A stretch of 64,000 nucleotides of DNA from NCBI GenBank assembly GCA_963402885.1, contig OY727096.1, forward strand, positions 11,327,820 through 11,391,819. The letters are read 5' to 3'. The notes below the pieces were generated by a model that saw nothing but the letters and a program-made list of their open reading frames with translations, had not been told where the DNA came from and searched no databases. Both the position numbers and the translations under genes were made by a program. Origin of the DNA: Antedon bifida (Eukaryota; Echinodermata; Crinoidea; Comatulida; Antedonidae). Position 1 is the first letter of the stretch, and every line of letters starts with the position of its first letter. This document shows, one piece after another, positions 29,598-61,250 of the stretch.

Positions 29598-32500
29598 TCA
29601 ATTTTTCCGTCTTATCTTCATTTCAACAAACTTGAGAGAATACTCATATCCTCTCCACTGTCGCCACACAACACCTTTGGCATACTCACTACCGGGCGCG
29701 TTTAAATAAACTCCATTTAAGTTTGTGAAATGACACGATTCATACCACCAAGCTCCACTGTATTCTTCTGCACAGTGACCAGTCCAGGCATCGTTGTCAC
29801 GGTCGAAGGTACTAAAACGTTGATGATTATGAAGAATCATAGCATCACCTAGACAAGTATATTGGAAATAAACACAATGAAAGTGGTGTTCAGTTTGATT
29901 TGTGATGAGAGGGATAGTTAAATTAAATATCAAAATGAAGTGCATATTATTGTTATCAATAACGAATTCTTCTATTCTTCTTTCTTGTCCCATTATTCAC
30001 TCTGTTATGAGCTCGGTGTAGGCCTACTAAGCCTCCGTATTATGGGGTAGCCTGTCCGGTTTATTTTTACACCGCCTTATTCTCTTTAGTGTTTTTCAAA
30101 CAGGTACTCATTTACAACTGAGGATGGACTGAGCAATGTCGAGAATAGAATCAGGGTCTTTCTGTATATTATTTATATCCAACCACCGGACTACAGCAAT
30201 TATTACGGTATTAACACTAACAACATGTGTGCGGCTATAGAATGTAGATATTAGGCCGAATATACTGTACCATAAATGAATTGTAAAATAAACATAATAT
30301 AAAAAAGCTTAACATTAATAGTGCAATAAAAACATGTCGATCCATAAATAATCCTACAAAACCACATACATACTGCAGTATAATATAAATGGAATTATGG
30401 AGACTATTTCTGGGGAAAATAACGGACACTGAACCCATATATAATGAATACAGTGCTATGCCTTGACAGTGGTTTAATGAAAAGTAAATTACCAGCAGAA
30501 AAAAATAACAAAATAATGTCCAATAGTCTCAAGTTTAGAATAAATTGTAATTTGATAAACCGTAATAAATGTATACAATTTCATAATTCTATAAATATTC
30601 GAATATTCCCATTTTATTATGGTTATTAAAATTCGTGTCATGATCAAATGTGACAGTAGTAGGATATGTATCGTCGCAATTATTTTTATTTTAATAGTGG
30701 CAGAAGAAAATACAAACTATTCGAGAAAGAACGGGAGGACGTAATTCGTACCGAAAGTACAAATTTGAAAAGGTGGGCATGGATAAATGAGAGAGAAGGA
30801 TTTGTTTCAATCTGAGATCATGGTGTCTCTTGCCTTTATCGCATTGACCACCTAAATGTTACAAAATAAACAGAGGTCTTCTTAATGCACATTCGTTGAA
30901 GCTGACTATCTCAAAATAGGAACCATGTTGAGCCGTGACATGTGCAAAAAGTCACATTTGTGCAAACATGTTGCCCTCAAATGTGCAAACAACCACATTT
31001 GTGCAAACATGGCACCCTCAAATATGCAAATCTCTAAAAATGTATAATCCACTAATGTGCAAACATCACGCCGTTAAATGTAAAAACGATCAGTTGTGAC
31101 GTTAAATGTGCAAATGAAATTTTACAAATATGCAAATCATTTTTTTTCAACTGTTGTATTATGGTATAGCGCCCTCTATAATGATCAGCATTCATGACTA
31201 TATTATATTGTACAGCTGCAGTGTAGCATAAATGTAACAGCACGGTAGTGTTGTGGATGGATATACAATGAGTTGTGAATAAAGACGGTTGTACATAATA
31301 AAGCTGGTTCTAGGTGTGGTTTATTAATGTATACTTTATGGTAGCCTTGTAATGACTGGATACTACATCAACCAAAATTGTTTATTAAAAATGATAACCT
31401 AATTCCTATAGTCACGGGTTTTTCTAAAAATGTTTTCAAGATATAGCCACTTACATATTTTTGTAGTACAGGCTGAAATAATCTGTTCACACAAACACAC
31501 AATCATGTCTGGGGATGCAGGACTGACACGTGGTCGCTGCTTACTGGAGAGGGTAATCCATACTGTTAAAATTGATTAAAAATAGTTGTCCTCTTTTTAA
31601 ATTTGAAATTGTGAGGATTTTCCTGCGCAAATCGTTTTAAGTTAACTAATTAATTAGATGAATAATATAGATGAAGTAGGTATGAATATGGTACAAGCAT
31701 TAGGCGATTGTAAATGTTATGCACGATTTAAAATAACACAGATTTCATTGCGCAATTTGATCTGCACAACATTGTGTAATTTGAAATTCGCGAGGAAATC
31801 TTTGCGCAATTTTATTCTTTTACCTGCATTTTTTATTAATGTATACGGATTTATGAGCTTTGGTTTTATCAAATACTGAAAATACTATGTGCTGTTCGAA
31901 ATTTTCTGCGCAATTTGAATATTGATTCAATTTGCGCAAGAAAATCCTCACAATTTCAAATTGCATAATTGTTCAAATCGCACATAACAGACATCAATTT
32001 AAAATAAAATAATATAAAATCTGATGAACTCAGTTGATTATGTTTTGTGAATTTCCTTTTAAAATAAGAGGATAACTATAAAAGATTTCACTTCAACGGT
32101 ATGGATTACCCTCTCCAGCAAGCAGCGACCACGTGTCAGTCTTGCATCCCCAGACATCATTGTAATTTGGGTTTTTTTAAACAGATTATTTCAGCCTGTT
32201 CTACAATTAAATTCATGGCTATATCATGAAAACATTGTTAGAAAAAGCCGTGACTATTTATTTTTAATAAACGATTTTGATTGAAAAAAAGATTTGCACA
32301 TTTGTAGAATTTCATTTGCACATTTAACGTCAAAAGTGATCGTTTTAACATTTTTAACGGCGTGATGTTTGCACATTAGTGGATTATACATTTTTACAGA
32401 TTTGCACATTTGAGGGTGCCATGTTTGCACAAAGGTGGTTGTTTGCACATTTGAAGGCAACATGTTTGCACAAATGTGGTTGTTTGCACAAAGGTGACTT

Positions 32501-35500
32501 TTTGCACATTTTACGGCTCAACAAACCACCACCGTTTGATTTCGATTCGACTGAGCCCGGTGATTGGCCGTAACAAGTAGCCAGGTACTATACAGTAATA
32601 ATTAATCTCCTATTTAGTGAATACATGTATGCTTAAAGCTCTGTCTACACTATGAAACTAATTTTGACAAAAAAAAGTGTGATTTGCCCAAATATAGTAG
32701 TGTTATGCTCAAATATAGTAGTGATATGACCTTATCATGTCCATATATGGGCACATCATATGCTTTTGTCACATAAAGTTTGATAGTTTAGACAGAGCCT
32801 AAAACATAATTCAAACGGCTATAGATAAACGTAACTTTTAGCATTTTAATAATATTAGATACAATTTTTCATCCATGGTTTTGAAAGTTTAAATTTACAA
32901 ACACGCCATGAATTATTAGGGACTTTACGAAACAGGACGGGAAGCCACAGGACGGTGCGCATGAATAATGTGTGAGTATGCATGAGCTTTTTATCAAAGT
33001 GGACGGAGCTTATATTAGCGTGAAATTCTGTCGTCTTAACTTTTTGAGGACGAGAAAAATGGCATTTTTTAGTTTACCGAGAACCACTAGAAATAAGGTA
33101 CATAACTTTAAAAATACAGCTAAAATTTAACTTAAAAGTGGAATTTTCGAAAGCGTTTGAATGCGAGGCCTATGCTGTACCACCAGGGCAAAGAGATTCA
33201 GAAGGGCCCCGCGAGACGGCGGAGGGAGAGATATACTGCTGTTCTAGCTAGGCCATACACCCAAATCAATAAAGACACGTTTAATCTAGCGTCGTGCATG
33301 ATGGGAATCACGCTTAACTGTTTACCTGCGGTTCCAGAGTACTCGTCAACGAATAATCTGAAGTCTTCCTCAAGACTACCAACACGGAATCTGCCATATT
33401 TAGCATGTGCTGTATTACTGTCAAAATCTTTCAAGTCGACACGGAGTTCGTATTCATCTAATATTGTTAATCGTCTGATCTTGTCCAAGCCTAGCCAAAA
33501 TTCACCAAATATATTACCAAAACCTCTACGGTAACTCCCAAAACCTCGGTAGAATGTTTCCTGACCGTCTTGCCTTCGCTGAAAAACCTAAGTTTCAAAA
33601 CAGCTCTGAGTTATATAAAATTGGCTATGATATTTGAAAAAAAAAGGAAAAGGAACCAAACTCATTGTAAGAAGAAGTTATAGATCACATAAATAAATAT
33701 GATCAGAATAATAATTGCGTGTGAGATATTGTTTGTGTCGTAGTAATAAGTAAATGAAGTTATGTGCAGGTTATTTCTTTTAATTGTAGATGGCGGTATG
33801 ATCATTTTAGAAACCGTCACAATGTTAGGAGATTGTTATTGTTCCCGGGAATATTGTACCATTATCGTCGTACCTCGTCATCCATGTCCTTTATTGGCCA
33901 TTACCGTTCGTCATCATGCTATTCGTTGTCATAATAATTAATATGGTTATGCCTACTGTAGCATAAATCCTTGTTCAAACCAAGTTCCCACAAAACTAAA
34001 ACATGTAAAACATTAATTGCGCGACGCAAGCAATACCGTAGCGATGTACTATAGTATGCCTATGTGATCTATACGTTGCATTGAACCCTATAGAATAGTG
34101 TGAATCAAACTTTGGAACTCTAAAATGGTTCTTTTTTTATTATGTAAGAATGTTGAATGTAAGATAGGCCTACATTAAAATAATATTCAATGTTTAATGC
34201 TTACTGTCCACCCTCCACCATCTGTTGTCATGTCACAGAACACTTCAAATGGAGATCCACAATCATCTGGGTATATAAAATACACATCGCTCTTTGTTTT
34301 TCCATTAAGGAGGTGATCTGTGCAGTCCCTTGGACGTTCTATTGAAACTGAAGAAAATAAGTTATACTTAATAGACTATCACTGATAAAATCTCAATATT
34401 TGTATTATTTTATATTATTATTTAAAATAATATCAACCGTATGTACTAAAGCCAATTACTACGGGGCGCCGTTCGGGACATTACTCATTTTGTCGACAAA
34501 ATACAATTAATTATGTGACACATAATTAACTCTATTCAGACAAAAACAATTCTGTGTGACGATAGAATTCATTCCATGTAGACAAAATTCATTCTGTGTG
34601 GACAGAATTCATTCTGTGTCAACAAAATACATTTTACGACGACAAAATTCATTTTGTGTCAACAAAATTCATTTTGTATCAACAAAATTCATTTTGTGTC
34701 GACAGAAGTCATTTTGTGTCGACAAAATTAATTTTGTGTCGACAAAATTAATTTTGTATCGACAAAATTCATTTTGTGTTGACAAAATTAATTTTGTGTT
34801 GACAAAATTCATTTTGTGTTGACAAAATTCATTTTGTGTTGACAAAATTCATTTTGTGTCGACAAAATGACTTTTGTGTCGACAAAATGACTTTTGTGTC
34901 GACAAAATGACTTTTGTGTCGACAAATGAATTTTGTGTGCTGAGCCTACTCAAGCGTGAGACAGAACGTTTTAACATGCACATTAGAAGGCGGAGATTTT
35001 AATGGTGCCTCAAAGATTGACAGTTACATTAATTTTATTTCACCGACCTTCTCTACTAACACTAACACTTTAAAATTAATTTATTTACCATGAATACAAG
35101 AACAGATTATTTCGTGGTACGGCGGAACAGCACTAGTTCTAATGGTACGCACGCGCACTAGAGATCAAATTCTTTCAGTGTTTTATTCACGAAGCAGGAT
35201 CTCCAAAGAGATACTTTTATATATATAAATACATCAGGCATAGAACATTAATTCTAAACCGCCCGGTGATCTATATATAAATTATGATTAATTCTGACAC
35301 AGGCGAGCACAATGGAAAAACTTCGGGACAAATCTCCGCCTTGGATACCTACCTTATCTACCTCAGATGTACCGCAAAACGTAGATTTGATAACATTAGT
35401 TTCAATATTACGATATTGTTCCATATGTCTATCTTAGGAAGATATTATAAAGGGTTTTGAAAAAAAATTTCTGATTTCATAGGTAGATTTTCAACCGTCC

Positions 35501-37093
35501 GCGCGGTAGTAAGTAATTTCCGGGTTCACCTTGCAACTTCCTGGTTTCAATTAAGTTGGCCGTTGGTGGCGATAGCCATTTTAGTTTTTTGTTTATTTTC
35601 GGACCGCGCGTGAGAAGGTACAGTAGTACATTAATAAAGATCAAATTAAATATATTCATAAAGCATAGGAGTATATTATGGGGAATAGTATATACAATTA
35701 CATCGGGAGAATGATGATAAGAGTTTTTTTTTAAAGTAGATTGAAACCCCGATAGCTGAGTTGTTGAGTAAGATGCCAGGACTGTATACTGCTGTGTACT
35801 ATCTGTGTCCCGTTAGGACCCTGGGATACTTCTGCCCATGTTGGAAGCCGTCTAAAACGCCTTCCATCTTTGGCCAAAACGGCCCACTGTGTCGCGGAAT
35901 AATGTATTAATTATACCAATTAGGCTGGTATTTATTTATATATATAAACACATCAGGCATAGAATATTAATTCTGAACCGCCCGGTGATATACTGAAATT
36001 TAATTAATTAATTTGAAACGATATTTATTTATTTAAGCTATAGATATTTTAAAATCGAACGTAATATTCATTATTCCTACATTTGGGACTTTCTTGATGT
36101 CTATATGACTTAAGTTCTCTTCACAGCAAACTTAAGCTTGGTTTCCACTAGGATACAACACAAGGATGTAATCGCAACGCAAATAATCAGGACGTGAGTA
36201 CGATTCATCATCCTCCGCTTCGTGATTGCGTTGCGTCCTAGTAAAAACCAAGATTTAAGATTACTTTCCATTGCTGCATTTCCAGATGTAAATGATCCGC
36301 ACATTATTCAATTTTAAGTCCGTAGATTTGATAATAGTTAGGGTGAGGTTGAATTAAGCGTTTACTTACTTCCTTGATAAGAAAACAAGCATTTTTTAAA
36401 CTACTTGATCTAGTTTTGCTTATACCATAAGGAAGTTTAGGCCTTTACTACTCATAATGATATCCAAAAGATCAAGTATGGTAGTTAGTATGGTTGCACT
36501 GGTAGTAGTGGAAGTTTTAGGGAGCTTTCGATTTGCGACGACTAAGGACGGACAACCTAGTTCAGATCAATCGATGTGTCGTCGGTCGTCGTCTGGACCT
36601 AGAAACCATCAAACCTGTGTCAAAATGGGAGCAAGGTCACACGCCCAAATATTCCACATGCGAACAATGAAATAACATGATGATGTAACACGTCGGTCGT
36701 CACAAATCGAAAGCTCCCTATTGATTACATTCAATGTGTAAATAAAATAAACACATTACCTTTGGTCTGACCTTGATTAACAAATACTTTCAATACACTT
36801 GATAAGTCAAGAACAGCCTGCTCCAGTTGCCTGATTCTTCCCCCACTGCACTCTGACAATTGAGTCCGAATGTCAAATGACAATTTGTCTACAGCTTCAA
36901 GCACTTGACTGTTGGAAACATTTGATCGAGATTTCTGATGAAATGGTTGATGAGGTCGAGCCAATGAACCTACTTCAGAATTTATATCAAACGATCCAGC
37001 TTGTCCAATCGTTAGAAAAGTGTCCGTTACATTACTTGCAAATACTGAATTCAGCAGACTAACAAGTAGGCATAAAAATGCTTTGCTAAACAT
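29598..37093 (-). CDS. Secreted fibrinogen-related (FReD) protein 1, four exons, 329 aa
   Basis: This is probably an extracellular pattern-recognition or adhesive lectin of the ficolin/fibrinogen-like type. Coding exons on the minus strand are 37093-36760, 34347-34205, 33587-33326 and 29848-29598. All have GT/AG borders with junction phases 1, 0 and 1; lengths 334+143+262+251 sum to 990, exactly 330 codons. Exon 1 encodes a signal peptide (residues 1-19) and a helical, coiled-coil-like stalk. Exons 2-4 encode the fibrinogen C-terminal domain (about 115-329): RDCTD, FCDMTTDGGGWT, QRRQDG, GEFWLG, YSGTAGDAM, the Ca2+-site-like DRDND, and WWYESCHFTNLNG. Intron 3 (3.5 kb) holds a foldback element and a MITE, and intron 1 a minisatellite. 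A TTTATT at 29497-29502 gives a minus-strand AATAAA about 100 bp past the stop. Ligand unknown. Confidence 0.88.
30927..32522. mobile_element. Long foldback element (1.6 kb), same family as 26958-27317
   Basis: Outer arms (30927 to about 31145 and about 32285-32522) start and end with GTTGAGCCGT/ACGGCTCAAC and carry repeated TTTGTGCAAACA motifs. Inner arms (about 31370-31640 and 31905-32280) are also inverted copies, sharing GGGTAATCCATAC and CACGTGGTCGCTGCTT with their complements. On the left, the outer and inner arms are separated by about 220 bp of extra sequence, apparently a secondary insertion. Taken together, this is a hairpin with arms of about 500-600 bp inside intron 3 of FReD gene 1. 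No transposase. Confidence 0.75.
32636..32801. mobile_element. MITE, 166 bp
   Basis: The ends are AGCTCTGTCTACACTATGAA and, inverted, AGGCTCTGTCTAAACTATCA, both continuing to GACAAAA. An internal AAATATAGTAGTG unit is repeated twice. Confidence 0.75.
34538..34940. repeat. 20-bp minisatellite with self-complementary units
   Basis: About 20 copies of GACAAAATTCATTTTGTGTC occur in tandem, with variants ending AATTAATT or AATGACTT. Each unit pairs with itself (ACAAAAT/ATTTTGT). It lies in intron 1 of FReD gene 1; the open frames across it are artefacts of the repeat. Confidence 0.85.
35216..36000 (+). repeat. Possible tRNA-type SINE (35745-36000) plus separate 3'-tail copy (35216-35285)
   Basis: A 65-bp tail containing ACATCAGGCATAGAA, TTAATTCT and AACCGCCCGGTGAT occurs at 35216-35285 and again at 35935-36000. 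Ahead of the second copy, CCCCGATAGCTGAGTTGTTG with GAGTAAG resembles a tRNA A box, and a moderately GC-rich body follows. I could not find a clean B box, so the SINE call is tentative. Confidence 0.4.
36132..36258. mobile_element. MITE with TTAA target duplication
   Basis: TTAA at 36132-36135 and 36255-36258 flanks inverted ends GCTTGGTTTCCACTAGGA and ATCTTGGTTTTTACTAGGA. This fits a piggyBac-like TTAA insertion, though the TIRs do not begin with the usual CCC. Confidence 0.7.
36518..36720. mobile_element. MITE, 203 bp, in FReD gene 1 between exon 1 and exon 2
   Basis: Inverted ends TAGGGAGCTTTCGATTTGCG and, on the other strand, TAGGGAGCTTTCGATTTGTG extend into GACGAC. The inner part also carries GTCGTCGGTCGTC-type repeats. 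It ends only 40 bp from the exon 1 donor. Confidence 0.75.
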
Positions 37094-38757
37094 TTTACTT
37101 TATTGTTCACAATATAAATATCTACGTGTTTACATCGGTGTAAGCACATTATAGCTCAAAACATCCATTATGTCTACATAGACCTACACAGTGTATTAAA
37201 AAAAGAACATTTATTACGGAATGTCAAATTATGGGTAATGCATTAAAATTCTTAGTAGCTGAATATATTAAACGTAATATAAACGTATTATGAGCAGCCG
37301 ATTCAAATCATTAAACACATGTAGGCCTTAACATGACACACATACACATTCAAATCGAATACATTCTCATTATAGTTCTTTTCTATGCAAAATCATTAAA
37401 CAATTTATTTCAATTTTTGTTTTACATTACTTAATTTATATTACGCTCTATAAAATTATCTCTTACTTACTTAAACACAATGTAGTGAAAAGGAAATGAC
37501 GTCAATTACTTGATCTTATATATTGTCTTATGACTTTCCAGTTGGTTCAATAAATATTCTCTCGCAACCTTTAATGTTAATATTAGATCCTCTGAGTGAG
37601 ATCACTGCTCCGGAAAATTAAAATACTGTAATGTAAGAGTACTGAATGTAAGACTTTCCTTTGTGCCAGAATATTACTACAATTCTTCAACATTATCTAC
37701 ACACATACTTAAATAATATGACAGGTGATGACGCTTGGTTTAATTTGAAAAAACTTACCATTGTTACAGCATTGGTCCTTCTAAATAACAAACTGAATGA
37801 AGGTAAATACCGAAGCTTACCTGTAAAATACAGTGGATTGTAAAATCCAGAAAGTAAAACCACGTGACATAAAGTAACATTGAATTATAGCGACTGTTTT
37901 AAAGATCATTATACACACTTTCAGAAAGTGCCACCACAGTTTTCTTCACTTGTATTCCCACATACGTAAGCAGCAACAATGACGTCTATAGTCTATGTAC
38001 GATATAAGTCGTCATTCAGTATAATGATCAACCCAAGACCACAGTCTGACCCGAAAGTAATTTTCTCATAGTAGTATTGTATGGTCTTCCGTAAGAAGTT
38101 CGATAATTTCCGACAGGGCGCTGTTGTTCTGTCTACACACTTTGAACATTGTTAGCATTAGACGTTATTATGTCATGATCTTTCAAGTCAATCTAATTCG
38201 TTTCAATGAAATGATATCGTATTAACCTTGTTTGAATAAGCGACATTTTCCCAGACTCATATATATCTTTTGTTTCGTTGTAGGGGAGGGGTACCTTTTC
38301 ATGCTTAAAGTGTTATTATTGTTTTGTATTATACATTTTTCAAACAAGGAATAATCTAACCATGACTTGCAGATCACTAAATGCCTATACAGTGCATCGA
38401 TATCACCGAGAGTTGAGTTATTCTAAACATTTTACGATAATAACATTTCGATACGTGAATTGTCATACTTAAAACTAGTACTCTCGACCGATAATCACAA
38501 GAATTTCCATGAAAAGGAAATACTGTAATAATTATAGGTCTAGTTATTTCAGAAAGCTCTCGAACTAAATAATACCGAACTTTTCTGAAATGTATCTCAG
38601 TTAATGAAAACAGTTTAAATGATTTGTTAAGGTATTATTATTATCTTTTGCTGTATACACATTCATCTGAGCAATTAAATTGTATGTTGCAAAAATTTGA
38701 AATATAAAGCGCAGTGTTATTTTTGTATATTAAGAATAATGTGTAATTATTGATTTT
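37094..38757. other. Intergenic region between the two FReD genes
   Basis: It should hold the promoter of FReD gene 1 (minus strand, starting leftward at 37093). No TATA box or other element could be chosen with confidence. No exon recognised. Confidence 0.4.
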
Positions 38758-42300: not shown

Positions 42301-44015
42301 AAGTATACGTATTTGTCTGTCGATATGGAAGGATGCGTCTGATAACATGTAGTCTGCAATGTAGCACTGACCACGCCCATTCAATCACAACGAATACTAG
42401 AGACAGTAATTATAATAATATTTAATTTGATAAGTTATTTTGATTTGTGAATTCAGTTTAATATTAGATACGTCATTCCATAAAGTCTATAAAATTATTT
42501 GCAAATTAACGCGTTAATCAAGATACATTATAAATTGAACATGAAATATAACCAAAATATAAAATTGATTAACTTATTGAAGAAAAAATGGCGAATATAC
42601 ATATCTAAAATTGAAATCATAACATACCGCTTAAATTAGTTAAAACCTTGGGCTCTCTGTAGCAATTTAAAACTTTAGGTATACTGACCAGCGCTAACTG
42701 GATAAAGATTTGGAATAGCGTAATAATGACGGTTATTAGATCGACGCCTAGCGTACAAATATTTTGATTTGTAAGAATAATTTGAAGAATTTGTTTTTGA
42801 TTGACAAGAATAATTTGAAGAATTTGTTTTTAAACAAGAAATATTTCTTACAACAAACGCCGCTCGACAGTAACTAGTAACTAAACATTTTGTGTAACGT
42901 AAAACACGTGTGAAATGCTCTATTAATTGTTTTGAGGATATAATTATGATTGGATTTTCCTTAGTTGATTTAGCTTATCAATCAATTAATTAAATCCGCA
43001 ATCAACCAATCACCTTTTATTTCAGAACAAAGTCCATGGCCTACTGATGTACAGAACAAACATATACATATAAAGACAATAGTACTATGCATATTCCGGG
43101 GTAGGGAATTTGCTTCCTACGGTCGTAGTGACCCACATACCCCAACAGTAAACAACATTTCTAATTTCTCAGAACCTTTGTCTTACAGCCGCCGACAAAC
43201 GTACTCACTAAATCAAACAATTCGTTATCTATACACAGCTTCCCTGATACAATCAATTCGAAAAAAATATTTATCATCATAGAGAAAGGATTACCATCAT
43301 CATTAATGATAAATTCCTACGTTGACCCAGCCGAAACGAAACATTGTTTATTGAACAGGTCTTACAGACTACTGTCTGTATACATCTCATAGATTCTTTT
43401 CTCCCCGTCGTGCTTTCGGGTTTAAGCATGTCTCGTCGTACGAGTTTACAAATTCCCATTTTCCGCCTTAATAAACTACTAGCGTCCGCTATTGATTGAC
43501 AAATCAAGCTGACCTGAAGTAACTAGAAAGTCATGTACAGGCACACAGTGGTCTAGTAGCAAACTACCACTTTCTGTACACACGTGCCGCGGCTTAATAT
43601 TTCACTTACCTGCAAATCTAGTGTTAACTGCTTTATCAGATACGAGGTAGTTTGTTAGTCCTTCTACCGCTAAAGACATACGGAGACATTCTTTACTCTG
43701 GTTTACTCCGGCTAGGCCTCCTACTTCTTGACTTAGTTCCTCAATTTGCTCGAGAATACTCGCATTCTCCTTGCACTTACAACTTGATGAATTGCCATAG
43801 ATGAAATGTTTAGAGCTTTCGGAATTTGGTTCTGTGGCATTACTTACATATTCACATTTTAAAATAATTTCTTTAGAATTATCTTCAACATTGTTAAAGT
43901 TTCTGCTATCCAAAGTTATGTCTGCTGCGCCCTCAACGAATATAGCTAATTCATATCCACTGAACTTTAAAACAGAAAGAAAACATACATTCGTAATTAA
44001 ATTTAACAGTTTCAT
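39322..44015 (-). CDS. Secreted fibrinogen-related (FReD) protein 2, four exons, 352 aa
   Basis: This is a tandem paralogue of the FReD gene to its left and probably also an extracellular lectin. Coding exons are 44015-43610, 41085-40949, 40605-40341 and 39572-39322, with GT/AG borders and junction phases 1, 0 and 1. Lengths 406+137+265+251 sum to 1059, exactly 353 codons. The last exon is 251 nt in both genes. Exon 1 gives a signal peptide and a stalk with a CKCKEN cysteine pair, N-glycosylation sequons and a short helical segment ([12 protein letters not shown]). The fibrinogen domain (about 139-352) has [51 protein letters not shown] and [13 protein letters not shown] replaces the DRDND of gene 1, and the stalk is unrelated in sequence, so ligand or calcium use may differ. 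Confidence 0.88.
43317..43467 (-). repeat. Dispersed repeat, second copy of the 20.3-kb sequence
   Basis: The reverse complement carries AATTTGTAAACTCG, AAAGCACG, TCTATGAGATGTATACAGAC and GACCTGTTCAATAAACAATG, matching 20300-20450. It lies in intron 1 of FReD gene 2, about 140 bp downstream of the exon 1 donor. It may be part of a solo LTR; no TG...CA borders could be fixed. Confidence 0.5.
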
Positions 44016-44432
44016 AATAGAAAACTATTAGTTGAAACTGATTGGTATTCACACGTCTGAACTGTACTTCCCTGGAAGTAAAATGATTAATTATGATACA
44101 GAACTCTTAGCCATTTCAATTGTTCTAGTTTAGGCGTTTGTCTGTTGGTAATCAGTTTGGTTGGAATTGTCGGCTTGATAAGTTTTTAAGCCTCTATTGC
44201 TTCCTGTCAGGAAGACACTGAATTTACTTTTCTCTTGAGACGTAATGTCACGTGCTTTAAATTTGTGATCAATACTTTATCGAACGGGGGTCTCCGGGAT
44301 TGGGGAATCGTTCAACGCCCACTTGCCACACAGTTCATTTCATACAATCAGCTGTTAGTAATCCTATTTAATGGGTAACTGTTTTGATTCGTTGGCTAGT
44401 TTTATTCACGTCGTGCCAGTGAACGGACCGTG
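44016..44432. promoter_or_regulatory. Divergent promoter region between FReD gene 2 and the sulfatase gene
   Basis: Only about 417 bp separates the minus-strand FReD start codon (44015) from the plus-strand sulfatase ATG (44433). A CACGTG E-box-like site lies at about 44249-44254 (GTAATGTCACGTGC), and a CACGTCGTGCC sits just before the sulfatase ATG. No clear TATA box was seen for either gene. 5' UTR lengths are unknown, and either gene could have a distant first exon. Confidence 0.45.
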
Positions 44433-47400
44433 ATGAAGCAGTCGGGAGAAAATACAGTTCTTGGAGGTGAAACTACAGTTCGAGGAAAAGTTATTGGAGA
44501 CATGAATAATGCAATTCGACTGAAAAAAGATCGAAGGTTTGAATGTTGTTCTCCCGTGCTGGCGTTACTGCTGGGATTAGTTAGCTGTCTCCTTTTAATA
44601 ATTGTATGCGGTGGTTTTTATTCAGAGAAGACATTACACATTGGAATAAAATCTGTAGAGAAAGAAAAACCTATCAAAAGCAGACCACACATTGTGTTCT
44701 TACTTGCCGATGATTATGGCTTTAATGATATTGGATATCATGGATCAAAAATTAGAACTCCGGTAATGGACAACCTTGCAAAAGAAGGAGTCATTCTTGA
44801 AAATTATTATGTTCAGCCAAAATGTTCCCCTACAAGGAGTCAGTTATTATCTGGACGTTATCAAATACATACTGGTCTACAACATGGTACAATTAAAGCG
44901 GGAGTACCAAATTGTCTGCCTCTTGACGAGGAAACACTTCCGGAAAATTTAAAGAAACTCGGATATACAACGCATATGGTTGGAAAATGGCATCTAGGAT
45001 TTTATAGGAAAGCGTGTTTACCAACGAAGCGAGGTTTTGATTCTTTTTTTGGAATATTACTTGGCAGTGGAGGACATTGGTCGCATGAAACTCAAGGTGG
45101 ATATGATTTTAGGGTGAATGAAAATGTCGCTAGGCAATATAAGAACAAATATTCGACTACTTTGTATGCCAGACAAGCACAAAAGATTATAATGTCTCTT
45201 AAGCCAGATAAGCCGTTGTTTTTGTATGTACCATTCCAAGCCGTTCACACTCCACTGGAAGTTCCAGAAAGTTATAGTCTGCCATATAAAGATGTATTCC
45301 GAGATAGAAATCGGCAAATTTACGCCGGGATGGTAACGTGTTTAGACGAAGCTGTCGGCAATATTACTGCAGCCTTGAAAGAAAGGGGTATTTATGACAA
45401 TACAGTGATCATATTTTCAACTGACAATGGTGCACAAGTGCATAGTAGCGGAGGGAGTAATTGGCCATTGCGTGGAATGAAAGGAACTTTGTGGGAAGGA
45501 GGAATACGCGGAGTTGGATTTGTGCATAGTCAACTACTTCCACAATCTATTCGAGGTACAGTCAATAGACAGTTGGCACACGTTAGCGACTGGTTCCCGA
45601 CGATAGTTGAGGGTATTGCAAAAGGTAAATATAGAGGTGCAAAACCACTCGATGGTTATAACATTTGGGAAAGCATAAGAAAAAATAAACCTTCTCGACG
45701 GAAAGAAATTCTTCATAATATAGATTCACTACGACTACCACTTACATCTAGAGACCGATGGGGCAAGCAAAGTGTCAAAAAGATATTTGATGTAGGCCAA
45801 CGCGCAGCAATACGACAAGGCGATTGGAAGCTAATTACAGGAACCAGTAATAGGTTTGGTTGGTATGCTCCAGCAGATTCTCATCATGAAACGATCATTC
45901 CAGAGCGCAACAGTGGGAAGGTACTCTGGTTGTTTAACATAACAGCTGATCCATATGAGCAAAATGACCTCTCTGAAAAGCACGTTGACGTTGTTATGAA
46001 ACTATTAAGACAATTAGCTAAATATAACCAAACTGCAGTTCATCCAAAATACCCACCGCCAGACCCAGCTGCAGATCCATCAAAACACGGAGGTGTATGG
46101 GGACCCTGGGCTAGAAAACCTCCAAAGGGATTTGAAGGTATTTACGGACCTTTCTGTTCAAAAGGTCATTCAGCTGCATGTGTTAAAACATTAAAGAATA
46201 TCAATGACGACATAGATAACTATGACGTCATTATTAAGGAAGCATTGGAGCAGGAAATTATTAAGGCATCTGATTTACTTAAATTAACCATAAAAAGTAA
46301 TAATCAAAGAAATGAACAATCTAAAACAAAATTGTCGCTGAATGAAAAATTTCCATTTAGAGCAATTGCACCGATTAAACAAATTCAAATTGAAGAAGCA
46401 TCTCTTGATGTTGCAACTACAGGTAAACGGAAAATTCTGCCCACAAAAGATGTTTCACAAAAGGTGCAACGTAAGAAACCAAATAACGAAACTGTACCTG
46501 ATATAAAAAATCATCGGAAATTGCCTAAAAAAGAGGTTCAATCTAAAAATATTTCTTCCAAAAATGGAGCTTCACCAAAAAATGACAAACCATCTAATAA
46601 AATAAAAGCTGAAGCTCCAAATACAAACGTTACTATGCTGAAAAGAAAATTAAATATTTCCTCTAAACAAGAAATGTTGCCTAAAAAGAATGTTTTATCT
46701 AAAAACGAAACATCAACCTCATCTCATAAACATTATTTTTCGGATAAAAACGACGGCTTAAATACAAAGAAGGTCTCAAATAAGGATGAACAAATAAATA
46801 AAAAAATTGTACCTAAAAAAGAAAGTACGCGTAAAAAGAAAATGCTACATAATGGTCCTTCGAATGAAAAGAAAGTTTTACTTAATAAGAAAGATTCTTT
46901 AGAAGAAAAAAGGAAAGATTTACATCAAGATAGAATTGTTAATAAGGAAACTTTACCTAAAAAAGAGGCGTCAAATAAAAAGAAAGTTTTACCTAAAGCG
47001 AAAGGTTCTTCAAAAGAAAAAGGGAAAGGTTTACTTAAGGATAAAAATGTTAATGAGGAAACTTTACCTTCAAATAAAAAGAAAATGTTACCTAATGATA
47101 AAAATGGGAATAAAAAGATTGCAAATAAAAAGAAAGTTTCAACTAAACAAAAGAACGTAAATGAAGATGTTTTACCTAAATCAAATAGTTTAAATAAAAA
47201 GAAAGTTTCACCCAATGATGGGGTTTCGACTGAAGAAATTATACCCAAAAGAGGTATCTCAAATAAAAAGAAAGCTTCACCCAACGGTAGGGGCTTGACT
47301 GAAAAAATTATACCAAAAAGAGGTACTTCAGATAAAAAGAAAGTTTCACCTTCAGGCAATTATGGGGGATCCACTGAAGAAATTATACCCAAAAGAGGTA

Positions 47401-48209
47401 CCTCAAATAAAAAAATAGTTTCGCCAAATGATGGACTTTCGACTGCTATAAATAAAAAGAAAGTTGCACCTAATAAGGAAGGTTTACAAGACAAAGATAC
47501 TTCGAATAAAAAGAAAGTTTCACCTGATAAAGAAGAATTGAAAGAAAAAACTTTATCTAAAAAAAGTACTTCAAATAAAAAGAAAGTTTTACCCAAAGAA
47601 AAACGCGTGAATAAAGAAATAGTACGTAAAACTGATGCTTCAAATGAAAAGAAAGTTTCTTCCAATAAAGCAGATTCGAATAATAAAGGTATTTTACCTA
47701 AAAAAGATTCTAAAATCAACCAGAAAATTTCACTCCAAAAAGAACATTCGAAAAAGAACGAAGACCCTTTGACGGAAAAGAGGATTTCAACTAAAATGAA
47801 AACGTCTACAAAATATACTTTAAATAAGAAGAAAGTTTTAGGAAAAGATAAAAATTCTTTTAAAGAAGCTAAGAAAGGAAGTAGCACAAGTACAAAAAAT
47901 GTTCAAACTAAAATTAAAGCGTCGCATAAAGAAAAAGTTTCAATTCAAGTGTTAGAAACCCTCAATAAAAAAGAGGTTATACCTAAAAAACGTACTTTAT
48001 CGAACAAAAAAAAAATAAATAATAAAAAGTCAGTTTTAACTAAAGGTGAAACTTCTCGAAAAAAGAGTTTACAAGATACTCCTTCATCTGAAGATTCACA
48101 TAAACCTAAAGTTTTATCTAAAAAGAATATTTTACCTAAAAAGGGAACTTCGAATAACAAAAGTGGAAAGAAAATTTCACATAAAAAGAAAGTTGAAACA
48201 ACAAATTAA
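44433..48209 (+). CDS. Type II membrane arylsulfatase (ARSB/I/J-like) with lysine-rich C-terminal tail
   Basis: Hydrolyses sulfate esters, probably on sulfated glycans in the Golgi/lysosomal lumen or outside the cell. Single exon, 1258 aa from the first ATG (44433); an in-frame stop lies at 44397-44399. Residues 40-62 form a membrane anchor after a basic N-terminus. The sulfatase domain (about 84-560) keeps the whole catalytic set: D93-D94, C131 in CSPTR (formylglycine site), R135, K185 and H187 in GKWHLG, H272, D331-N332 and K350. Motifs YQIHTGLQH and KWHLGFYRK resemble arylsulfatases B, I and J, usually about 530-600 aa. From about 620 to the end runs a Lys/Ser/Asn/Pro tail with some 17 NKKKV-like units and three near-tandem blocks IIPKRGTS-NKK-VSPN around 47.2-47.43 kb. 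An unbroken 1.9-kb frame in TAA-rich sequence argues that the tail is translated. Lack of introns could mean an old retrocopy. Confidence 0.9.
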   Translation: MKQSGENTVLGGETTVRGKVIGDMNNAIRLKKDRRFECCSPVLALLLGLVSCLLLIIVCGGFYSEKTLHIGIKSVEKEKPIKSRPHIVFLLADDYGFNDIGYHGSKIRTPVMDNLAKEGVILENYYVQPKCSPTRSQLLSGRYQIHTGLQHGTIKAGVPNCLPLDEETLPENLKKLGYTTHMVGKWHLGFYRKACLPTKRGFDSFFGILLGSGGHWSHETQGGYDFRVNENVARQYKNKYSTTLYARQAQKIIMSLKPDKPLFLYVPFQAVHTPLEVPESYSLPYKDVFRDRNRQIYAGMVTCLDEAVGNITAALKERGIYDNTVIIFSTDNGAQVHSSGGSNWPLRGMKGTLWEGGIRGVGFVHSQLLPQSIRGTVNRQLAHVSDWFPTIVEGIAKGKYRGAKPLDGYNIWESIRKNKPSRRKEILHNIDSLRLPLTSRDRWGKQSVKKIFDVGQRAAIRQGDWKLITGTSNRFGWYAPADSHHETIIPERNSGKVLWLFNITADPYEQNDLSEKHVDVVMKLLRQLAKYNQTAVHPKYPPPDPAADPSKHGGVWGPWARKPPKGFEGIYGPFCSKGHSAACVKTLKNINDDIDNYDVIIKEALEQEIIKASDLLKLTIKSNNQRNEQSKTKLSLNEKFPFRAIAPIKQIQIEEASLDVATTGKRKILPTKDVSQKVQRKKPNNETVPDIKNHRKLPKKEVQSKNISSKNGASPKNDKPSNKIKAEAPNTNVTMLKRKLNISSKQEMLPKKNVLSKNETSTSSHKHYFSDKNDGLNTKKVSNKDEQINKKIVPKKESTRKKKMLHNGPSNEKKVLLNKKDSLEEKRKDLHQDRIVNKETLPKKEASNKKKVLPKAKGSSKEKGKGLLKDKNVNEETLPSNKKKMLPNDKNGNKKIANKKKVSTKQKNVNEDVLPKSNSLNKKKVSPNDGVSTEEIIPKRGISNKKKASPNGRGLTEKIIPKRGTSDKKKVSPSGNYGGSTEEIIPKRGTSNKKIVSPNDGLSTAINKKKVAPNKEGLQDKDTSNKKKVSPDKEELKEKTLSKKSTSNKKKVLPKEKRVNKEIVRKTDASNEKKVSSNKADSNNKGILPKKDSKINQKISLQKEHSKKNEDPLTEKRISTKMKTSTKYTLNKKKVLGKDKNSFKEAKKGSSTSTKNVQTKIKASHKEKVSIQVLETLNKKEVIPKKRTLSNKKKINNKKSVLTKGETSRKKSLQDTPSSEDSHKPKVLSKKNILPKKGTSNNKSGKKISHKKKVETTN

Positions 48210-48450: not shown

Positions 48451-48456
48451 AATAAA
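48451..48456 (+). terminator. Candidate polyadenylation signal of the sulfatase gene
   Basis: AATAAA lies about 240 bp past the stop codon. It is the first canonical hexamer I noticed there, but in AT-rich DNA it may be fortuitous. Confidence 0.4.
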
Positions 48457-52873: not shown

Positions 52874-54240
52874 TTACTTGTGTTCCTTCAGGTACCGTTC
52901 TGTCTCTAGTTGTGCCACCATATCTTTAATCAATTTTATGGTATACCGATCTCCTTCTTTTTCTGCTAATTGAAGTGATTTTCTATAATTTGTTTTCGCA
53001 GATTCAAAATCACCTTAAAATTGGAAGTAAAGTGCAAATATTAACATTTACATCACTATAGTTTAATCTTGAGGTAAAAAGAAGTTGATCATTTAGACAT
53101 ATTATACAAGAAAGCTAGTAAATAAAAAATTAGTAATAAATATGCATTCTTTAAATTTTTATACAATCGCTTTTAAAACCTTGCACTCCATTTTTGTTGT
53201 TACTGAAATTGAGTTATTGTACCCAATAATATGTTTCAGAGACTATGCTACACACAAACATTTGAATGCTACGCACAAGGTTTTGAATGCTATGCACAAG
53301 GTTTTGAATGCTACGCACAAGGTTTTGAATGCTACACACAAGGTTTTGAATGCTATGCACAAGGTTTTGAATGCTACGCACAAGGCTTTGAATGCTACGC
53401 ACAAGGTTTTGAATGCTACGCACAAGGTTTTGAATGCTACACACAAGGTTTTGAATGCTATGCACAAGGTTTTGAATGTTATGCACAAGGTTTTGAATGC
53501 TACGCACAAGGTTTTGAATGCTACACACAAGGTTTTGAATGCTATGCACAAGGTTTTGAATGCTACGCACAAGGTTTTGAATGCTACACACAAGGTTTTG
53601 AATGCTATGCACAAGGTTTTGAATGTTATGCACAAGGTTTTGAATGCTACGCACAAGGTTTTGAATGCTACACACAAGGTTTTGAATGCTATGCACAAGG
53701 TTTTGAATGTTATGCACAAGGTTTTGAATGCTACGCACAAGGTTTTGAATGCTACACACAAGGTTTTGAATGCTGCATGCAAGGTTTTAAATGTTATGCA
53801 CAAGGTTTTGAATGCTACAACAGGGGTTTGAATGCTATGCACAAGGTTTTGAATGCTGCATACACAGTTTTGAATGCTGCATGCAAGGTTTTGAATGCTA
53901 CACACAGTGATTGTTTAATTCATTTAAATACGTAGTCTCTTTAAAATAGACATAAAAGATTGATTGATTTTTGTTCTCCTGTAAAAGTATGTCTTGTGGA
54001 GAAACAATTAAGGTTTTGAAAGAAAAGCGATTTGCCAAATGCCCTACCTAGCAAAAATATAGTGATTATATACCTACCCATATACATTTGACAAGATGCG
54101 AGGTTGCTTAGAGCTGTTGATAAGTATGGGTGTGACACACTTTTTCCTGTTTCTATAGCTTTTTCCAAATAAGTTATTGCTTCTTTGTACTTTTTCTGAA
54201 GATGATAGAGAGCTCCAAGGTCATTCAGCAGAACAACATT
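52874..54240 (-). CDS. TTC19: TTC19-like TPR protein, last two coding exons (partial gene)
   Basis: TTC19 is a mitochondrial inner-membrane TPR protein needed for respiratory complex III maintenance. Two exons are visible on the minus strand: 54240-54078 (acceptor after an A/T-rich tract ending CAG, donor G|GTAGGT, ends in phase 1) and 53013-52874 (acceptor TTTTAAG, ends in TAA). Joined in frame they give 100 residues. The first exon reads VVLLNDLGALYHLQKKYKEA, then a TPR with AIETGK, then HPYLSTALSNLAS. The second continues GDFESAKTNYRKSLQLAEKE, then LIKDMVAQLE and a short basic end. The two TPR units and the HP-x-L-x-x-x-LSNLA phrase fit the C-terminus of TTC19. Kinesin light chain and other TPR proteins are less good fits. 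Upstream exons should lie to the right and were not found. Confidence 0.72.
53262..53908. repeat. 21-bp minisatellite in the TTC19-like intron
   Basis: About 30 copies of GAATGCTACGCACAAGGTTTT occur, with alternation of TACGCA, TATGCA and TACACA forming higher-order blocks. The period is divisible by three and lacks stops in several frames, so long ORFs (for example GFECYAQ repeats on plus, HSIQNLV on minus) arise on both strands. The array lies wholly inside the intron 53014-54077. Confidence 0.92.
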
Positions 54241-57872: not shown

Positions 57873-60800
57873 TAGACTCATGTCTCAAAAAATGATTCAT
57901 GCTCAAGTTTTCCTTGCTTATACTGCCAAAATCCTTGTACGTGGAGCCAAAAAGCAGTCCAATGCGACGAATGCCAAGGATGGACTCACACTAGCTGTAT
58001 GGGCATGAACACTGTTAATTATGAAGTTCTTGCTAATTCAAACATTTCATGGACTTGTTGCAATTGTGGAATGCCCAATTTTTCCACATCATTATTCTCA
58101 CAATGGACCATTGAGATGTCAAATAGTTCTTCTAGTCTAAGTAGTACAAAGTATAGCTTAGATGAAACTCCACTCAGTCCACCAGTGGCGACATCTTCGC
58201 CTAAAGCTTCTGGTCCGTTGCCACATGTTAGCAAAAACAAACCACCTACCAAAGACACACACTTGATGAATGAAAAAGGCATGATCAATGAAAGAACTCG
58301 GACTAAGCCTAAACGCGATACTGCCAAGGTACCATTAAAAATTCTTGTTATAAATTTCCAAAGCATAAAGAACAAATCAGCAGAACTTGCTGTCTGCCTG
58401 GACATCAATAAGCCAGACATTGTAATAGGGACTGAGACTTGGTTAAACCCCACAATTGGTAGTAACGAGATTTTCCCTCATGAGTATACTGTTATCCGCA
58501 AAGATCGTGATGACTCATGGGGAGGCGTATTACTCGCATTTAAGAAAAACCTTGTTACCGCACATATTACTGATACGGACACAGACTGTGAGATTGTATG
58601 GGCAGAATTACAAATTACAGGTGCTAAATCACTTCTGATTGGAGCCTTTTATCGCCCCCCTGATAAGAAAAACACCGCTTATCTACAAGAATTAAGAAAA
58701 TCTTTAACCAAAATCAAAAACATTAACAACTGTAATGTTTGGTTAGGTGGAGATTTCAACCTAGGAGACATAGACTGGGAGAGCCAAACCATTAGACCAG
58801 GAAATGATCCAAGAAATGTCTGTCACCAACTAATTGACATAACTTCAGATTTCAACTTGGAGCAGCAGGTTTTGTATCCTACTCGACATAATAGGATCTT
58901 GGATCTATTCTTCACAAATAACTCTACCCTAGTCGATAGTTCCAATGTAATACCGGGATGTAGTGATCACGACGGAATTGCAGTAATCACAATGAACTTG
59001 AAACCAAAACTAAATGCTCATAAACCGCACAAAGTTTATTTGTATCATAAGGCAAACATGATCGAACTTAAACAGGACATGAAAAACTTCAGTAACAAAT
59101 TTGTAGAAACCCACACCCAGCAAAATGACAACAGAAGTGATATTGTTTGTGTTGAGGATTTGTGGAGTCAATTTAAAGTCAAGTTGTTTGAACTGATGGA
59201 CAAACATATACCAACTAAAATGTCTGGGAAAACAAACAAACCCCCTTGGATAAACAATAAAATCAAGAAGATGCTACGACTTAAACAGAAGGCCTACAAC
59301 AAAGCAAGAAAAACTGGCAATGTAACAGACTGGGACAAATTTAAAAATATACGGACACACACCTTTAAAGTAACAAGAACTGCTCACAGGAGATATATCC
59401 GGGAATTTTGCTTGGGATCAAAAAAACAGTTTTGGTCCTTCGTAAAAAGCCTAAGGAAAGACTCCTCTGGCATACCAGCACTTAAAGATCAAGGATCAGT
59501 AATATCAGATAATATCACAAAAGCGGAACTACTTAATACCCAATTCACATCTGTTTTTACTAGGGAGGATTTAACATCTATCCCCCAAGTTGAGTCCTGT
59601 AAACACACACCTATTCCTGATATTACTGTTGATCCAAACGGTATTGAAAAATTACTCAAAGGACTCACACCAAATAAAGCTCCAGGGCCTGATGGAATAC
59701 ATCCACGTATCTTAAAGGAATTAGCCACTGAACTAGCCCCTATTTTATCAATAATCTACCAATGCTCACTAGACACTTGTCAACTACCCGATGATTGGAC
59801 ATTAGCAAACATCACCCTGATTTCCAAAAAGGGGGAGAGAACTAAACCAAGCAATTATAGGCCAGTATCACTTACTTCGGTGTGCTGTAAGTTACTTGAA
59901 CACGTGGTCCACTCTAACATTATGGACTATTTTGATAAACACCATACTCTCTCCGATCAACAACACGGATTTAGAAGCAAGCATTCGTGTGAAACGCAAC
60001 TTATTCAAACTATACATGATCTCACCTTTGCACAAAATAGCAAACACCAGACCGATGTTGTAGTGATGGACTTCTCAAAGGCGTTTGATGTAGTAGCACA
60101 TCAGCGTTTACTTCTTAAATTATCACATTATGGGATCTGCGGCAAACTAAATCATTGGATTTCTGCATTTCTTACAAACCGATCACAGCGAGTAATTGTA
60201 GGCGGCGAGCACTCCAAATGGGCCAAGGTTTTGTCTGGAGTACCACAAGGGACGGTCTTAGGCCCGCTCTTATTCCTCGTCTATATAAACGACCTACCAA
60301 ATGGAATAAACTGTACCACCCGTCTATTCGCGGACGACTGCGTCTTGTATAACACAATTAAAACCAAAAATGATTCAAAATTATTACAGCAAGATCTCGA
60401 CACTCTGTCAATATGGCAGAGAAAATGGCAGATGTCATTCAATGTAAACAAATGCTATCTCCTCAGAATTGCGGCATCAAAAAACCCAATCACCAATCAA
60501 TACAGTCTCGGAAATTCGATCTTGCAAGAGACTCACACCCACACCTATTTAGGTGTTGACATTGCTCACAATCTGAAATGGAACACACACATTAACAGAA
60601 TAGTTAGCACAGCCAACAAAACTCTCGGTTTTGTTCGTCGAAACCTAAGTTTCTGTAATAAGGACACCAAAGCAACTGCATACACTGCACTGGTAAGGCC
60701 AACCTTGGAATATTGTTCTGGGGTTTGGGACCCCTTTACCACTGAACTCATACAAAAAATTGGTAAAATTCAACGGCGAGCAGCCAGAATGGTCCATAAC

Positions 60801-61250
60801 AACTATGACTGGCAACAGAGTGTAACAGAACTAATAAAAGATCTGAATTGGGAACCACTTTCCTTAAGGCGAAAAACATCACGTCTTGTTACTTTACATA
60901 AAGCCATGGGGGGCCATCTGGCTCTGCCACTCCATTCTTATCTGGCGCCGGCTCAAAGGCAAACCCGTCGATCTTCAACCAGCAAATCATTTATCCAACA
61001 CCAAACACGCACTGATACTTACAAGTTCTCATATGTGACGAGAACAACTAGGGATTGGAACAAACTACCTCCAAATATACAGAACATTGAAGAAACTGAA
61101 TCTTTCAAGGAAGCATTAAAGGAACACTTAAAAAACATATCACCTGAAACCAGAGACTAAATAACAAAGACCCCGCATGCGCACAAACCCTGCTTGTTTT
61201 GATCCTTAAGGATCGTTAAGCAGTAACCGAAAGAAGAAGAAGAAGATGTG
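57873..61250 (+). mobile_element. CR1/Jockey-like LINE, nearly intact
   Basis: One long ORF (57999-61160) is preceded by an in-frame PHD-finger segment and followed by a short 3' UTR. The UTR ends GCAGTAACCGAAAGAAGAAG with further AAG units, a typical trinucleotide-repeat tail of this LINE group. The insertion is in the opposite orientation to the neighbouring TTC19-like gene. The 5' end was not delimited and no target-site duplication was identified. Confidence 0.85.
57999..61160 (+). CDS. LINE ORF: PHD finger, AP endonuclease and reverse transcriptase
   Basis: 1053 residues from the ATG at 57999. The frame is open further left to a stop at 57873-57875 and encodes CLYCQNPC...VQCDEC...WTHTSC, which with WTCCNCG just after the ATG forms a PHD-type zinc finger (C2-C2-HC-C2). 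Endonuclease motifs are INFQSIKNK (about 117), GTETWL (143), FYRPPD and GGDFNLGDIDW (249). RT motifs are APGPDGIHPRIL (about 560), MDFSKAFD (690), SGVPQGTVLGPLLF (747) and the catalytic FADD (777). No internal stops, so the enzyme may be active. The PHD part has no in-frame ATG; an ATG at 57880 lies in another frame just before an A6 run, suggesting a one-base slip there. Confidence 0.92.
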   Translation: MGMNTVNYEVLANSNISWTCCNCGMPNFSTSLFSQWTIEMSNSSSSLSSTKYSLDETPLSPPVATSSPKASGPLPHVSKNKPPTKDTHLMNEKGMINERTRTKPKRDTAKVPLKILVINFQSIKNKSAELAVCLDINKPDIVIGTETWLNPTIGSNEIFPHEYTVIRKDRDDSWGGVLLAFKKNLVTAHITDTDTDCEIVWAELQITGAKSLLIGAFYRPPDKKNTAYLQELRKSLTKIKNINNCNVWLGGDFNLGDIDWESQTIRPGNDPRNVCHQLIDITSDFNLEQQVLYPTRHNRILDLFFTNNSTLVDSSNVIPGCSDHDGIAVITMNLKPKLNAHKPHKVYLYHKANMIELKQDMKNFSNKFVETHTQQNDNRSDIVCVEDLWSQFKVKLFELMDKHIPTKMSGKTNKPPWINNKIKKMLRLKQKAYNKARKTGNVTDWDKFKNIRTHTFKVTRTAHRRYIREFCLGSKKQFWSFVKSLRKDSSGIPALKDQGSVISDNITKAELLNTQFTSVFTREDLTSIPQVESCKHTPIPDITVDPNGIEKLLKGLTPNKAPGPDGIHPRILKELATELAPILSIIYQCSLDTCQLPDDWTLANITLISKKGERTKPSNYRPVSLTSVCCKLLEHVVHSNIMDYFDKHHTLSDQQHGFRSKHSCETQLIQTIHDLTFAQNSKHQTDVVVMDFSKAFDVVAHQRLLLKLSHYGICGKLNHWISAFLTNRSQRVIVGGEHSKWAKVLSGVPQGTVLGPLLFLVYINDLPNGINCTTRLFADDCVLYNTIKTKNDSKLLQQDLDTLSIWQRKWQMSFNVNKCYLLRIAASKNPITNQYSLGNSILQETHTHTYLGVDIAHNLKWNTHINRIVSTANKTLGFVRRNLSFCNKDTKATAYTALVRPTLEYCSGVWDPFTTELIQKIGKIQRRAARMVHNNYDWQQSVTELIKDLNWEPLSLRRKTSRLVTLHKAMGGHLALPLHSYLAPAQRQTRRSSTSKSFIQHQTRTDTYKFSYVTRTTRDWNKLPPNIQNIEETESFKEALKEHLKNISPETRD

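Follow-up and report, generated by a model that had tools for sequence, protein, structure and literature searches.

An intronless ARSB-type sulfatase gene in Antedon bifida with a predicted membrane anchor and a 628-residue lysine-rich C-terminal tail

The window analysed here, a 64,000-nucleotide stretch of the Antedon bifida genome, contains at 44433–48209 (+) a single open reading frame of 1258 amino acids without an internal stop, which encodes an ARSB-family sulfatase, probably anchored in the membrane and followed by a long lysine-rich tail. The explanation that we tentatively regard as the best, drawn mainly by analogy, is that of an intronless, membrane-anchored ARSB-family sulfatase whose disordered polycationic tail may act as an electrostatic tether on anionic glycans. 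The combination of an intronless ARSB paralogue, a signal anchor and a 628-residue Lys-rich tail was not found in the open-licence PMC literature searched; sulfatases with basic appendages are already known.

The gene and the encoded protein

The coding frame is intronless across the whole sulfatase gene, 44433–48209 (+), and begins at the first ATG after an in-frame TAG (44397–44399) located just 5' of it. The following features were delineated:

44433–44552 (+), N-terminal segment, residues 1–40, with RLKKDRR ahead of the membrane helix; model confidence low
44553–44612 (+), predicted transmembrane helix, residues 41–60 (signal anchor, putative type II); hydropathy peak 3.0 at residues 42–60, helix 41–60 in the model
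44679–46109 (+), ARSB-type sulfatase catalytic domain, residues 83–559
44823–44837 (+), CSPTR formylglycine motif, C131–R135
46110–46322 (+), linker past the ARSB C-terminus, residues 560–630; two Cys, helix 578–627 with low to moderate confidence
46323–48206 (+), Lys-rich, disordered-type tail, residues 631–1258; repeats from about 46796 to 48195
48451–48456 (+), AATAAA closest downstream of the stop codon

The preliminary description of this DNA had reported a protein of twice the family length, and the frame agrees with this; 699 of the 1258 residues, linker and tail together, lie past the end of ARSB. An assembly or frame artefact was set aside, given 1258 open codons and repeat copies in one phase. 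Neither the catalytic part nor the tail has a second copy within the 64-kb window, where each matched itself alone.

A Pfam profile search matched residues 85–392 to PF00884 (Sulfatase, E 4e-58) and gave no other family, PF14707 (Sulfatase_C) at residues 458–535 remaining below the cut-off (22 vs. 30.9 bits). The best solved relative is human N-acetylgalactosamine-4-sulfatase (ARSB, 1fsu; 540 bits, residues 84–559) and the second-ranked solved sulfatase scored 191 bits, which places the window protein nearest to ARSB among sulfatases; the catalytic domain is 55% identical to the human enzyme. The formylglycine motif CSPTR is present, starting at C131, and the metal and sulfate active-site residues of ARSB are kept at 10 of 10 positions, the human numbering of which we take to be correct (the 1fsu row prints A at C91, which was matched by place). 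The complete sulfatase with CSPTR and metal/sulfate ligands proposed earlier is thus borne out, and the catalytic part, judged from its sequence, is an ordinary, animal-type member of the ARSB family (subfamily S1_2).

A bacterial origin was considered and rejected: 51 of 55 stretches in the prokaryote scan encode a relative, 49 of these 51 at no more than 40% identity (best segment), and the two above this limit are short stretches (L078, 63% over residues 107–199; L080, 50% over residues 500–531). The former, L078:3001–3275, lies on a contig filed as Akkermansiaceae; its 93 residues match the window sulfatase at 63% identity, well beyond the remaining bacterial matches, and may represent a conserved fragment or contamination. 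A viral scan with the sulfatase gave six pattern matches and no relative.

The hydropathy profile contains one hydrophobic segment, peaking at residues 42–60, and the AlphaFold model predicts a helix at residues 41–60 with moderate confidence. Positive charges precede this helix, the positive-inside bias expected for an N-in/C-out orientation, which points to a type II topology with the active site and the tail both outside the cytosol. The sulfatase is therefore probably anchored in the membrane, as the preliminary description suggested, and the charge bias also fits its view that the tail and the active site face the same side of the membrane. A coiled coil in the linker was considered and dropped, as its heptad score was matched by 2916 of 5000 shuffles.

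Elsewhere in the window, a long open frame at 57876–61160 (+) with PHD-finger-like, endonuclease and reverse transcriptase domains represents a LINE-type retrotransposon, and a fibrinogen C-terminal domain exon lies at 29598–29996 (−); both of these neighbours, like the ARSB clade itself, fit an animal genome. Open frames at 36731–37099 (−) and 43602–44024 (−) have secreted-protein-like starts and no Pfam match; large tandem arrays occupy 11380–12557 (15-bp unit × 78), 34555–34938 (20-bp × 19) and 53245–53906 (21-bp × 32).

Paralogues and the loss of introns

The genome searched comprises 315.6 Mb in 27 contigs, with the window on contig C9. The catalytic domain gave 72 matches, and the window gene alone was matched from end to end within a single frame. 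Otherwise, close relatives gave exon-sized matches; a long open frame, of 536 codons, also occurs in a more distant relative located on C11, with about 29% identity. Among 20 stretches fetched, 12 ARSB-type gene groups, partial ones included, were recognised on C15, C12, C11 and C7. Where covered, at least nine of these 12 groups have the same exon breaks, close to query residues 145, 207, 260, 331, 416 and 475; the partial C15D copy shows the last break (475) alone, and the C12a pair has partly different breaks. GT/AG were present at or near the match ends for most, not all, boundaries in the two genes printed. Four tandem ARSB-type paralogues, one partial as matched, lie at G000:C15:5410000-5436000 (loci L010–L013) within a wider expansion of the family.

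The window gene thus differs from its ARSB-type paralogues in being without the introns that they carry. The trees place it beside the C15 and C11 paralogues as their sister, at modest support (69; 64.6/64). Introns are common to this sister clade and to the C7 genes close to human ARSB, so that, most simply, the window gene would have lost all of them at once, as in a retrocopy. Human ARSB (1fsu) ends at WGPW, whereas the window protein adds a membrane helix before the catalytic domain and 699 residues after it. The paralogues stop 0–18 codons past the ARSB end in 11 of the 11 C-termini read, an extra coding exon being not formally excluded, and their N-termini are short and signal-peptide-like in all nine read, with no long N-terminal segment; the presence in the same genome of paralogues without the tail fits a local gain. 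A genome search with the linker and tail returned the window gene as the sole match among the 61 best candidates scored. A donor gene for the tail was sought in the genome and none was found; the NKKKVxP DNA pattern gave five genome matches (four in this tail and an isolated one on C10) vs. three for the reversed control. The most fitting reading of the window gene is a retrogene-like copy of ARSB, which would have gained an anchor and a polycationic tail, 'retrogene' being suggested by the missing introns. Retroposed intronless functional opsin genes are described in a bivalve, the scallop Chlamys farreri (PMC5700196).

Composition, repeats and reading frame of the tail

The 628 residues of the tail include K at 24.8%, R at 2.7%, D at 4.1% and E at 6.5% (K+R 27.5%, D+E 10.7%) and no Cys; the net charge is +106, the pI is 10.3, 98% of the 30-residue windows are net positive, and the charge-hydropathy plot places the tail well on the disordered side. 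The longest basic run is four residues, and the dibasic pairs number 49 KK and 17 KR/RR/RK. The whole protein has no RXXR furin-type site, and the XBBXBX heparin-binding motif was found 0 times vs. 3.1 in shuffles, so it is rarer than chance. The coding sequence of the tail is A-rich and AT-rich, with a GC content of 19% at third positions, and is built of degenerate repeats of about 69 to 111 nt. A 53-nt repeat keeps one codon phase in 13 of 13 copies and a 35-nt repeat family in all 11 copies checked, of 16 listed, while the core motif AAYAARAARAARGT has seven matches in the window, all inside the tail, vs. 0.11 expected. The highly cationic repeat tail, earlier put at about 640 residues, is therefore real as a coding feature, with 628 residues, net +106 and repeats in phase.

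Second-order Markov simulations of the tail gave 0 of 2000 open sequences, with a mean of 40.9 stops, so the open frame is not due to chance. Under simulated neutral drift, substitution at 10% of sites would introduce 11.3 stops into the present tail, and no run stayed open (0/500), so the reading frame has been maintained; at 2%, 45 of 500 runs stay open. Pooled over five repeat pairs, pS is 0.285 and pN is 0.256, both inflated by pair '69b', which is out of register due to a 6-nt insertion; without this pair, hand arithmetic gives pS 0.22 and pN 0.20. There is no clear amino-acid-level purifying selection among the repeat copies, and strong selection on the exact sequence would look different; possibly, selection acts on charge and length only, or there is none beyond the open frame.

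Possible role of the tail

According to the explanation that we tentatively prefer, the ARSB-family introns would have been lost, most simply via reverse transcription of an mRNA, an N-terminal signal anchor would have been gained, and a C-terminal extension of 699 residues would have been acquired, the last 628 of which became a disordered polycation by in-frame repeat expansion. In sulfatases, the active-site Cys is converted to formylglycine in the ER, and C131 would be converted likewise. The signal anchor would then fix the enzyme in a membrane of the Golgi or of the cell surface with the tail dangling on the same side, where it may serve as a low-specificity electrostatic tether, retaining the enzyme at glycans that are sulfated or anionic in some other way and raising the local substrate concentration, like the basic domain of the Sulf enzymes. 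The glycosaminoglycans and fucans named in the preliminary description would be candidate substrates.

The earlier statement that no sulfatase of such architecture has been described goes too far in view of the basic domain (HD) of Sulf1/Sulf2 (PMC3890690) and the C-terminal extension of ARSI (PMC2650720). According to PMC3890690, small substrates do not require the Sulf HD, recognition of heparan sulfate and retention at the cell surface depend on it, and it was proposed to direct processive desulfation; PMC6237999 treats catch-bond binding of the HD to heparan sulfate. Like Sulf1/Sulf2, the window protein carries a long basic segment on a sulfatase, and the proportions are close: 27% basic and 13% acidic residues in the HD, as we read PMC3890690, against 27.5% and 10.7% in the tail. 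At the same time, Sulf1/Sulf2 belong to a different sulfatase family from the ARSB-type enzyme of the window; the HD lies between the catalytic and the GlcNAc-6-sulfatase-like C-terminal domains, whereas the tail is terminal; the HD includes 12 basic residues in a row, whereas the longest run in the tail is four; and the HD is not described as repeats, whereas the tail is repeat-built. ARSI is an ARSB paralogue with a C-terminal extension of 45 residues, suggested in PMC2650720 to function in substrate recognition, and the C-terminal extension of the window protein is about 15 times longer. In the literature searched (open-licence PMC), no ARSB-type sulfatase was found to bear a long tail rich in lysine, which is no proof of absence.

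The analogy with the Sulf HD and the ARSI extension is the reason for which an electrostatic tether is favoured over a possible, if doubtful, alternative, namely that the tail is a tolerated low-complexity expansion with no binding role. Here, an AT-rich stretch past a lost stop would have grown by slippage and duplication and stayed open owing to a mildly harmful effect of truncations and frameshifts. The paralogues that stop at the ARSB end, the A-rich and AT-rich composition with its low third-position GC, the uniqueness of the tail in the genome among the best candidates scored and the near equality of pS and pN between repeat copies all suit such an expansion; the last of these also counts against a tether, as do the absence of XBBXBX and basic runs of four residues at most. 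Positive charge in nearly every 30-residue window and a frame still open when about 11 stops would be expected from drift at 10%, on the other hand, are less expected of a merely tolerated sequence. A more specific version of the tether, which we consider rather unlikely, is a convergent Sulf-like ARSB enzyme, in which the polycationic tail would turn an exo-acting 4-O-sulfatase into a surface-held, processive one on intact sulfated polymers.

It is improbable that the mature protein, despite the open frame, lacks most of the tail, be it by alternative splicing, by early polyadenylation or by proteolytic cleavage at dibasic sites: the many KK and KR/RR/RK pairs would offer such sites, but the protein has no RXXR furin-type site, and the simple donor and acceptor consensus patterns tried across the sulfatase gene gave no match, although this is weak evidence. 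Slightly less probable still is a mainly structural protein, in which the tail would be a cationic component of a matrix (shell, mucus or adhesive) and the sulfatase would trim sulfated partners; matrix proteins rich in lysine have been described from pearl oysters (PMC4498902), but a transmembrane anchor is unusual in matrix proteins, and no fusion of a sulfatase with a shell-matrix protein occurs among the literature matches listed.

A further reading makes the window gene an orthologue of vertebrate ARSI/ARSJ, the C-terminal extension of which would have grown longer in the present lineage. In its favour, ARSI/ARSJ and the window gene alike are ARSB paralogues that have few introns or none and are extended at the C-terminus. 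The C-terminus of ARSJ is lysine-rich. The human ARSI and ARSJ rows in the tree and in the AU test are provisional sequences; the ARSI row, the one compared, agrees with PMC2650720 at 7 of 7 positions (C93, G185, Y212, N298 and three N-glycosylation sites). With these provisional sequences, ARSI/ARSJ cluster with human ARSB (79.9/74), away from the window gene, and a grouping of the window gene with ARSI and ARSJ is rejected by the AU test (p 0.018); again with the provisional sequences, the window gene with C15 alone is not rejected (p 0.113), and the window gene with human ARSB, ARSI and ARSJ is borderline, narrowly not rejected (p 0.050). The ARSI gene comprises two exons, and its protein has 45 additional residues (PMC2650720), against the unbroken coding frame of the window gene, and orthology to ARSI/ARSJ thus appears very improbable; the parallel in C-terminal extensions looks convergent, a lead suggested by sequence comparison.

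If the tail binds glycans, a glycan-tethering basic appendage would have originated separately from that of the Sulf enzymes, by the simple route of intron loss and repeat growth, and the protein would offer a natural test of whether a disordered, sequence-degenerate polycation suffices for substrate capture. If the tail is instead a tolerated expansion, the gene would be a caution against reading function into charged repeats.
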